Source of the DNA: Vicinamibacteraceae bacterium | GTDB lineage: Bacteria; Planctomycetota; Phycisphaerae; Phycisphaerales; UBA5793 | Direction: 5' to 3' | Length of the DNA: 43,923 nucleotides | NCBI GenBank assembly: GCA_011525805.1 | Contig: WYBR01000128.1 | Span: 1-43,923, forward strand | Part shown: positions 3,563 through 7,062 of the stretch, in pieces | Layout: each line of letters begins with the position of its first letter | Numbering within the stretch: the first letter of the stretch is position 1 | Notes under the pieces: generated by a model | The model's database searches: none | What the model saw: the letters and a program-made list of their open reading frames with translations, nothing else | Told to the model about the DNA's origin: nothing | Translations under genes and position numbers: made by a program

Positions 3563-5545
3563 TCACTCGATGAAGGTCACGCTCGATAGGATTCGCTCGA
3601 ACGCCTGGCCGAATTTCTCGTGGTTCTCGATGGTCGAGATCAGGTTGATGAGCACGGCCGACTCGTTGTGTGTGAGCAGCACTTCGGTGACGCGCATCGG
3701 GACGCCGCGCTCGGATTTCGGCGTTCCGCCGAACCGCAGTCGGTGTCCGGCGACTCCGTTGATCTCGACGGCTTGGTCGAGGAGCACTTCAACTTCGTGC
3801 AGTGCTGTCCGCTGCTGTCTGAGGCGTGCGTCGAGGACGACCTTCGGCGCCACGCCTTTGGGCAGGCTGAAGGCGGTAACGTGGAACATCGCCGAGTCGC
3901 CCAGGTCGGCATCGGGCGGGCGCACGCGCAACACCTGGGCGCCGGCGGACTTCGTGTCCTCCACGGTCCACGCCTCGTCGGGAATGCTGAATCGGAAGCG
4001 ATGCTCGGCACTGGTGTAGGTTGTGCCGCGCAGGCCGGGTTCGATCGCTTCGCCCGGCGGTTCGGGAATGAGTTCAACGTCGGCGATCGAGACGCCCAGG
4101 CTTTGCGTGAGTTTCCAGCGCAGCGGCTGGGTGCCCATGACGGTGTCGCTGTGGATGAACTTGAGGAGGTCGAGCGAGCCGCCGACTTCGTTGACGCTGG
4201 CGTCGACGGGGATCCACTGGCCGACGTAGACCTCGTTCCACATGTGCCCGGCCCAGGTATCGCCCTCGGCGCCGACGAAGCGCCGCTGACCGAGGGCGAG
4301 GCGCGTGGGGAGGCCGGCCGCGCGAGCGAGCGAGGCGAAGAGCGTGGAGTATTCGGTGCACTTGCCGGTGCGGCGCTTGAGCACCTGCGGGCCGCTGAGC
4401 GTTTCGGCGATCATCGCCGGCTCGATGTACTCACTCACCCACTGGCAGATCGCCGTGGCCGCGGCGCGGGCGGAGGTCGTCTCACCGACGATCTCGGCCG
4501 CGATCCTGGCGACGGCTTCATCCTCGGGAAGAATGAAGTCCGTCGAGCCGAGCGCACCGGCGAACTGCTGGCGCGAGACGGGAAGGACGATGTCGGGCCC
4601 GTCGTCTGCGGGCCGCGCAAGGCGGACGAGCGCCGTGTATTCTCCGCCTTCCTGTTCCAGGGAGATGAGACTTTGCCGCGAGTCTTCGAGTTGGAACTCA
4701 TCGCGCGGAATGTCCTTCCACGTGAGTTTGACGTCAAGGCGCTTCAGTCGCCGCGTGGGCGGCAACTCGCGATCGAAGGGAAACACGAGCAGTTCGCGAT
4801 CGGGGATTCTGCGGTGCGCAATCTGCTCTGCCTCTTCCTGCGTGGCTCTGACGATGTGCGTGCGAGGCGTGGCGACGGTCTGGTCGATCATGACGCCGCA
4901 GTCGTCGAGACGGATCATGGTCTTGAGCCACTCCTTCTCGAACTCGATGGACCACTCGGAGCCGGCCGCGCCGCGCGAAACGAGGCGAACGGTGGCGGGT
5001 TCCGCTTCGCCGCTCTCGGCTGCGATGATGCGCACCGGCCGCGCATGGTCGATGACCGCGTCGGGCGCCGCTTCGGAGACGATTGAGTGCAGCCAGTCGC
5101 CCAGCGCGAGGTCCGAGATGGAGGGGATGCCGTCGTTGAACGTGCGGGTGGTCTCCTCGACGCCGTCTTCCGTTTCGCGCGCGATGACGTAGCCGTTTTC
5201 AATGCCTCGGCCGTGAAGGGTTCCGCCTCCCGAGAGGCGCGATGATGTCGCTTGCATGCTGATCAGGGAGAACTTCGAATCGACGATTGCGGAAGAAGTG
5301 GACTGCAACTCCTGCGGCGCACCGAAAAACTCGATTCGGACGAGGGACTCGACGGCGTACTCGACCTGCCCGTGCTCGCGCTGCCGCACGACGACGTGAA
5401 TGGAGCCGTAGCGCTGCTCTCCGTCGCTGATGACGTACCAGAGGTCGCGCTCAGGCGGCCCAGCGCTCGCTCGGCGAGCCTGCAGCAGGCTGGTGGTCGC
5501 GAACGCCAGCAGCAGGAGGACGAGGCAGCGGCGCCAACGGGACAT
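3563..5545 (-). CDS. Secreted transglutaminase-like (cysteine protease fold) protein
   Basis: 660 residues with a clear signal peptide (hydrophobic LVLLLLAFATTSLLQA, cleavage near residue 28). The transglutaminase core lies at about 345-455, with the triad C396 (RRTGKCTEYS), H434 (WAGHMWNEVY) and D448 (IPVDAS). The ~300-residue N-terminal part is beta-rich and unassigned. The C-terminal ~140 residues (FRFSIPDEAWTVEDTKS onwards) resemble the PsbP/DcrB-type fold that often follows such domains in planctomycetes. The start is fixed by AAAGGAGAG six bases before the ATG. It probably acts in the periplasm as a hydrolase or cross-linking enzyme; the substrate is unknown. It is monocistronic, with ~165 bases before the next minus-strand gene's end. 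Confidence 0.85.
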   Translation of the reverse strand: MSRWRRCLVLLLLAFATTSLLQARRASAGPPERDLWYVISDGEQRYGSIHVVVRQREHGQVEYAVESLVRIEFFGAPQELQSTSSAIVDSKFSLISMQATSSRLSGGGTLHGRGIENGYVIARETEDGVEETTRTFNDGIPSISDLALGDWLHSIVSEAAPDAVIDHARPVRIIAAESGEAEPATVRLVSRGAAGSEWSIEFEKEWLKTMIRLDDCGVMIDQTVATPRTHIVRATQEEAEQIAHRRIPDRELLVFPFDRELPPTRRLKRLDVKLTWKDIPRDEFQLEDSRQSLISLEQEGGEYTALVRLARPADDGPDIVLPVSRQQFAGALGSTDFILPEDEAVARIAAEIVGETTSARAAATAICQWVSEYIEPAMIAETLSGPQVLKRRTGKCTEYSTLFASLARAAGLPTRLALGQRRFVGAEGDTWAGHMWNEVYVGQWIPVDASVNEVGGSLDLLKFIHSDTVMGTQPLRWKLTQSLGVSIADVELIPEPPGEAIEPGLRGTTYTSAEHRFRFSIPDEAWTVEDTKSAGAQVLRVRPPDADLGDSAMFHVTAFSLPKGVAPKVVLDARLRQQRTALHEVEVLLDQAVEINGVAGHRLRFGGTPKSERGVPMRVTEVLLTHNESAVLINLISTIENHEKFGQAFERILSSVTFIE

Positions 5546-5710: not shown

Positions 5711-6835
5711 TCACTTGCGAACGGCCTCGCGGAGTTTCTCCAGTTCGGCCTCGAGGATTTCTTCGCCGCGGCCGCGGACGACGCGGCCCTGCGGGTCGAT
5801 GAGGATGGCCGTGCCCAGCGAGGTGATCGCGAAGTTGCGGTAGGTGCGGCCGGTCGAGTCGAGCAGGATCGGGAAGGGCAGTTCGCGTCCCTTCCACTGC
5901 TTCTCGATAACGTCCTTCATCTTCTCATCGAGCACCTCGAAGGTCGGGGCGCTGCGGTCGTGGAAGGCGACGATCGCGAAACGGTCTCGGAGATCGGCGT
6001 ACTTGTCGCGGAGGTCCATGAGGGCCGGCAACCTGCGGCCGATGCACGGCGGTCACCAGTACGACCACGTCTCAATGAGCAGCCACTTGCCCTTGAAGTC
6101 GGCGATCTGCACGTCGGCGTCAATACCCCGCGCCTCGGTGATCGTCCATGGCGGCGGCTCCTGGCCGTAGAGTTTCGCCAGCGCCGTCGGCCGGAGCATC
6201 ACCGGGTCGGTGTTCACGTGCTCGGCCGCGAGGTCGAGTTCGATTTCCGCCCGTTCGAGTTCGGCCGCGACGAGAGAGAGTTTCGCGCGCCCGGGCGGAA
6301 GGAACAACTCCCACTCCCCTTCACCTTCGATCACCGCCGAGGCGACCGCGATCGGCGCGCGGGGATCGAAGACGAAGGCGCGGACGGTGTTGTCCGTAAG
6401 CAGCGGCAGGGCGATGCGGACTTCGCCGGTGAGGCGCACGAGCGGGGCGATGGTAAGGGTGAATTCATCTTCGAGGACGTCGGGGTTGAGGATGGCGGTT
6501 CCGCCGCGGCGCGTTTTGAGGTCGAGTGCGAGAAGCGCCAGCGGCCGGCCATCGAAGTAGAGCGGCCCGTTGAAGCGGCCCTGATCGTCGCTGCGAACGG
6601 TGAGTCGCTCCTGCATGTAGGCGTCGGACTTCCACTGCGGCGTCATGGCGCCGCCGGTGGTGGTCCAGTGCGTGCCGACCTCGATGCCCGCGACGGGCCG
6701 GCCGTTTTCATCGACGACGCGGCCGTGAACGTGGCGCACGTCGCGCGTCTCGCCGGCGAGCGCTGACGCAGCGCAGGCGGCGAGCAAGGCCGCGATGAAC
6801 GCCATCCCAGCCGAACGACGTGCAGATTGATTCAT
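5711..6835 (-). CDS. TlpA-type redoxin with in-frame TGA at the CPPC motif; probable selenoprotein
   Basis: Read straight through a TGA at 6053-6055, the frame gives 374 residues. The start ATG has GGAGG eight bases upstream. Residues 1-28 form a signal peptide. Residues ~32-60 look like a carboxypeptidase-regulatory-like beta domain (VHGRVVDENGRPVAGIEV). A beta-rich middle follows, then from ~245 a thioredoxin-fold redoxin: FKGKWLLIETWSYW, the TGA, then PPCIGRRLPALMDLRDKY and FPILLDSTGRTYRNF with its cis-Pro region, ending with AILIDPQGRVVRGRG. The TGA stands where the first Cys of WCxxC belongs, giving U261-P-P-C264. The downstream half has no start or ribosome site of its own and keeps the coding pattern. 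A SECIS-like hairpin lies just after the TGA. The role would be periplasmic thiol/disulfide exchange. The alternative is a one-base nonsense change (TGC or TGT to TGA) or a sequencing error. Confidence 0.75.
6023..6040 (-). promoter_or_regulatory. Candidate bacterial SECIS hairpin
   Basis: On the coding strand the bases GGCCGCAGGTTGCCGGCC begin 12 bases after the TGA. They fold as GGCC-GC / GC-CGGCC, six pairs with one bulged C on the 3' side, around an AGGTT loop. The loop starts 18 bases after the TGA and has G as its second base, which fits the published description of bacterial SECIS elements (apical loop with G in its first two bases, short distance from UGA). From memory, the E. coli fdhF SECIS has the same AUCGG lead-in, GCAGGU loop entry and a 17-base spacing. 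No folding program was run. Confidence 0.65.
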
Positions 6836-7062
6836 CGATGATCCTCCGGACGGCGAAATGGGGCGACTCGACCGCGATTGGCTCGGCGTCGACTCCCTGT
6901 GAGCATAGAGCGCTGCGGGGTCCGGGGGGGCGCGGCGCCGGGTGGTGTCCCGGCAGGTTTGATCCTACACTCGCCGTTGCCGCCATCCCGAATCCGTTGA
7001 CATTGCCGCCCGCCATGCGAGGCACGAGGCCTGACCGGTCGGGCGGCGGTTGGTATGCCGTC

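Follow-up and report, generated by a model that had tools for sequence, protein, structure and literature searches.

A predicted selenocysteine-containing TlpA/ResA-type redoxin and its relatives in Planctomycetota

We analyzed a 43,923-nucleotide stretch of a draft planctomycete genome (hereafter the window) and find that the product of one of its genes is very probably a TlpA/ResA-type thiol-disulfide oxidoreductase that is exported and has selenocysteine (Sec) as its nucleophile, the UGA codon being decoded by way of SelB, tRNA-Sec and a SECIS hairpin. The selenoprotein status of the gene is as firm as sequence allows. The features discussed below are as follows.

5711–6835, minus strand: predicted selenoprotein gene; the product is a TlpA/ResA-like redoxin of 374 residues, probably exported, whose Sec is residue 261 (UPPC)
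6843–6847, minus strand: GGAGG ribosome-binding site, 7 bases upstream of the ATG
6749–6835, minus strand: likely signal peptide or lipoprotein leader, residues 1–29 (RR...AFIAALLAAC...ALA), read by eye; a low-confidence helix in the structure model
6230–6742, minus strand: N-terminal beta-sandwich region, residues 32–202, strand-rich in the model
6053–6055, minus strand: in-frame TGA read as Sec261, first position of UxxC
6044–6055, minus strand: U-P-P-C redox motif; the codon of the resolving Cys264 is TGC at 6044–6046
6016–6052, minus strand: predicted SECIS hairpin of the bacterial type, immediately following the TGA
5813–5815, minus strand: Gly341 at the cis-proline position, which is Pro in the other three aligned domains
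3563–5545, minus strand: transglutaminase-like protein gene, next downstream on the same strand

The reading frame runs from an ATG at 6835 to a TGA stop codon at 5711–5713 and contains a single in-frame TGA, at 6053–6055, which stands in place of the first Cys of the TlpA/ResA-type CxxC motif (KGKWLLIETWSYW-U-PPCIGRRLPALMDLRDKYADLRDRFAIVAFHD). There are 260 codons before this TGA and exactly 113 after it. GC content by codon position is 0.67/0.42/0.89 after the TGA compared with 0.70/0.49/0.84 before it, and codon preference is the same on both sides. In frame, the downstream part scores +73 bits; the two alternative frames of the strand score about −73 and −79. Both the codon-position GC and the codon score thus bear out the first-pass annotation, which had placed a TGA at the first Cys of a thioredoxin motif and described the 113 codons beyond it as coding-like. 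Because a frame would stay open for 113 codons by chance in about 6% of cases at 66% GC, openness after the TGA is weak evidence, and homology beyond it is what counts. When every TGA in the window was scanned, none but this one had strong codon-like sequence both before and after it. The same annotation held that the downstream half has no start of its own, which is true in part: a mechanically called TTG-start ORF does exist at 5711–6031, but its TTG is a loop codon of the predicted SECIS hairpin and lacks a properly spaced ribosome-binding site.

Homologous sequence beyond the TGA is found within the same genome: another four redoxin domains of the WUxPC type have TGA at this codon, and a single tandem chain accounts for two of them. 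A scan of the genome contigs with the single protein returned no relative, and alignment was needed. A read-through protein search yielded three more members of the family, each with a single TGA: a WUGPC domain on contig 127 and a pair of domains on contig 2. The contig 2 gene (C2:14539–16617, equivalent to L019:454–2532, minus strand) is a single frame of 693 residues in which a proline-rich linker joins two UGPC redoxin domains. Since both domains share this frame, they would form one chain with two Sec sites; each of its TGAs is followed by its own SECIS-like loop. The four family domains, from the window, contig 127 and contig 2, align over their full length and share many invariant residues downstream of the TGA. 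At the edge of contig 96 (C96:1–581; L025:3–581) lies a redoxin with W-TGA-GPC that is more distant, does not have the AG[GT]YTG loop of the family and is likely another selenoprotein. The WUxPC DNA pattern has 11 matches in the genome, six of which resemble chance matches in short frames.

We estimated selection from an orthologous pair of the tandem gene. Upstream of the first TGA the dN/dS ratio is 0.18; in the stretch between the two TGAs it is 0.15, and beyond the second it is 0.10. The latter two values indicate that sequence past both TGAs is under purifying selection. For the window gene itself we found no close orthologue, and the evidence of purifying selection therefore concerns its paralogues and not this gene. 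By the paralogue alignment and the tandem dN/dS, the family does not decay after the TGA, decay among homologues being the outcome that the first-pass annotation had named as damaging to its claim. That annotation had also asked which codon the homologues carry at this site, and they have either TGA or TGC/TGT.

The distribution of these codons was surveyed in a draw of 392 Planctomycetota genomes, our own included. The family is present in 22 of them, with TGA at the site in 18. All but one of these 18 carry selB (17/18), the exception being an 85% complete assembly, and selB is missing from two of the four family genomes that have no TGA. Within the genus, a gene of the contig 127 type occurs in one genome and the two-Sec tandem gene in a second, with TGA at every site; two other genus genomes have selB and no family match at the cut-off. 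The congener's tandem gene is represented by L074 and L037, and the genome that carries it matches the public record of the planctomycete isolate PLA5. Homologues with Cys (TGC or TGT) come mainly from other planctomycetes, and also from Verrucomicrobiota and Latescibacterota. Sec and Cys forms are intermixed in a tree of 62 redoxin domains, which shows at least seven changes between them; the window protein clusters with one Sec copy and one Cys copy (support 98/90).

Two further observations concern individual members. Three of them, L106 (G263), L115 (G335) and L109 (G077), have lost the redox motif (for example SADC or ADDA) and occur in the same genomes as Sec copies or in related ones; they are probably non-catalytic redoxin paralogues. 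Two Cys copies, L047:3785 and L034:298, keep AGT-YTG loop codons of the SECIS type, and possibly represent recent changes from Sec to Cys.

The genome encodes the machinery for Sec insertion. The assembly is a draft of 138 contigs (4.54 Mb, 97% complete), and a search for sel genes, proposed as a check on the original claim, found SelA, SelB, SelD and tRNA-Sec all encoded. Genes for three of these adjoin one another on contig 59: the tRNA-Sec with a UCA anticodon (C59:20976–21071, 68 bits), selA (C59:21149–22513, E 9e-159) and selB (C59:22684–24576). The selD gene, on contig 71 (L079, minus strand), has its own in-frame TGA (2392–2394) at the usual Sec position (CAG-U-AGK), in the context ...NYANCAG-TGA-AGKLSAQ..., and is itself a selenoprotein.

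Directly downstream of the window TGA, the predicted SECIS hairpin has an upper stem of seven base pairs with one bulged C, a lower stem, and an apical A-GGU-U loop at 6030–6034, 18 nt after the TGA; its predicted free energy is −14.5 kcal/mol. The published bSECIS model calls for a hairpin 16–37 nt after the UGA, with a G within the first two positions of the loop and a minimum free energy of at most −7.5 (PMC13188914), and the predicted element agrees with it in spacing (18–19 nt), loop G and energy. In single-sequence folding, shuffled sequences are as stable as the hairpin (z 0.14), so the case for the element rests on loop sequence, spacing, rare codons and the comparison of Sec with Cys copies. 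RNAalifold on the alignment returned a trivial consensus of only three pairs. The loop codons of the window gene are rare: within the window, AGG accounts for 3.1% of the codons for Arg, and TTG for 5.6% of those for Leu. An AG[GT][TC]TG loop core is present in 24 of 25 distinct Sec copies and in 2 of 53 Cys copies (Fisher p 1e-16, uncorrected for relatedness); a tree-corrected test of the same association was not significant, with too few independent pairs. Where the loop position is Ser, all 24 such Sec copies use the codon AGT, whereas 2 of the 6 Cys copies that encode Ser-Leu-Pro do so (p 5e-4). A same-contig control is provided by L029, in which Gly-Ser-Leu-Pro is written GGC AGT TTG CCG in the Sec domain and GGC AGC CTG CCC in the Cys domain. 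A six-pair helix forms in 86% of cells, compared with 26–55% when it is slid by one to three columns.

The C-terminal domain of the window protein matches PF00578 (AhpC-TSA) and PF08534 (Redoxin) above cut-off, and a CarboxypepD_reg-like match at residues 36–89 falls below the Pfam cut-off. The structure model has a mean pLDDT of 87 and places Sec261 after a core strand, at the start of the first helix (residues 262–278) of the thioredoxin fold; the CxxC-type motif at the start of helix 1 is therefore present, in the form UxxC. The best PDB matches by both sequence and fold are ResA, StoA, TlpA-type proteins and pneumococcal exposed thioredoxins. By eye, the leader contains a hydrophobic stretch and LAAC. 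The window copy is divergent in two respects: its motif is UPPC where the paralogues have UGPC, and the cis-proline expected before the fourth core strand is replaced by Gly341. ResA, StoA, TlpA and CcmG carry Pro at this position. Because Gly is also found there in the Cys homologues L039 and L040, Gly341 is not by itself a sign of decay.

Oxidoreductase chemistry and a location outside the cytoplasm are the best-supported reading of the family and the leader sequence. In the mechanism we propose, the UGA would be decoded by SelB and tRNA-Sec, guided by the SECIS hairpin directly downstream; these elements are seen in the sequence, and insertion is inferred from them. Sec261 would then attack a substrate disulfide, or an oxidized thiol, outside the cytoplasm, and Cys264 would release it as the resolving residue. 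The N-terminal beta-sandwich region may dock or position the partner.

A recent nonsense mutation, leaving a pseudogene or only a 260-residue N-terminal product, is a very unlikely account of the TGA. The divergent UPPC motif and the absent cis-Pro would fit it, as would the want of an orthologue close enough to measure selection on the window copy; but TGA occupies the identical codon in four other domains of the genome and in 18 genomes of the phylum draw, codon usage is equally strong on either side, and SECIS features with rare codons in the loop are present. The recurrence of TGA also bears on an assembly or sequencing error, by which the true codon would be TGC or TGT and the protein an ordinary CPPC redoxin. 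One wrong base in a draft of 138 contigs would suffice for this, yet independent TGAs recur at this codon on different contigs and in different genomes, and the rare-codon hairpin loop of the Sec copies is mostly missing from Cys copies, which makes such an error highly improbable.

We reject genome-wide reassignment of TGA, for example to Trp, under which the residue here would not be selenocysteine. Nothing beyond the in-frame TGA itself speaks for it. TGA still serves as the stop codon of the window gene, just a single TGA of the window lies between two stretches of strong coding sequence, the genome has selAB and a true tRNA-Sec, and TGA here stands for Cys and not for Trp. A selenium-dependent switch, with the beta-sandwich functional alone when selenium is short and the full-length protein made otherwise, would add to Sec insertion without replacing it. 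The part before the TGA does comprise a complete leader and beta-sandwich region in the model, but we found no sequence sign of selection for a short form and no separate regulatory element, and we regard such a switch as unlikely. Sec insertion at residue 261 remains our preferred explanation.

The transglutaminase-like gene downstream was not found beside homologues of the window gene, and we saw no conserved neighborhood among their loci, many of which span only 1–5 kb. In the planctomycete P2, a transglutaminase-core gene is reported beside Sec-insertion genes (PMC4807772). Its adjacency in both P2 and the window may be coincidence.

Selenoproteins of this general kind are already known, since a 2026 catalogue of prokaryotic selenoproteins lists TlpA-like (cd02966) UxxC, Prx-like (PF00578) UxxC/UxxU and Redoxin (PF08534) UxxC families (PMC13188914). 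The thiol-disulfide isomerase-like or TlpA-like UxxC selenoproteins (cd02966; PMC1088965, PMC13188914) share with the window protein a thioredoxin-type domain with Sec first in UxxC; compared by description only, their catalogue entry mentions neither a beta-sandwich nor a family in planctomycetes nor a tandem form with two Sec sites. Both Pfam families of the Redoxin and the Prx-like thiol:disulfide oxidoreductase entries match the window protein, and these entries, again compared by description, state no N-terminal architecture (PMC13188914). ResA, StoA, TlpA and CcmG share its fold and motif position but have Cys and no beta-sandwich extension, whereas the window protein has Sec and a beta-sandwich. 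Among NCBIfam models, selenoprotein models included, none scores above cut-off for the window protein: ResA (NF002854) gives 44.5 against a cut-off of 170, TlpA (NF047696) 32.1 against 230, and the ResA-like WAxxUGC selenoprotein (NF041054) 17 against 300. The last has a ResA-like domain with Sec in common with the window protein, but its motif is UGC and not UxxC. The Porphyra isolates P1 and P2 are planctomycetes that use Sec, as the window genome does, and the selenoprotein discussion in the accessible part of that study concerns fdhA and fmdB, not a beta-sandwich/redoxin family (PMC4807772). Our literature search found no paper linking a beta-sandwich/redoxin selenoprotein family with Planctomycetota.

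The first-pass annotation had regarded a TlpA-like UPPC protein as not yet described. UxxC selenoproteins of the TlpA-like and redoxin kinds are in fact catalogued (PMC13188914), and what stands of the claim is that no catalogue entry or NCBIfam model that we found names a family of beta-sandwich plus redoxin. This architecture looks undescribed, as do its distribution within the phylum and the fusion with two Sec sites; they are set apart by catalogue descriptions and may be listed under another name. On balance we lean toward an undescribed, Planctomycetota-centered family of exported beta-sandwich/redoxin selenoproteins with several copies per genome, including a two-UGPC chain in which each site has its SECIS. 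The window gene would be a divergent UPPC branch of this family without the cis-proline, and may differ in redox role.

Standard annotation would probably split the window gene or label it a pseudogene. The family adds to the selenoproteomes of a phylum in which they have been little described so far. Its natural Sec/Cys pairs offer a means to ask why Sec is kept, and the tandem chain with two Sec sites, which is conserved in a congener, lends itself to testing how frequently ribosomes get past two UGA codons in a single message.
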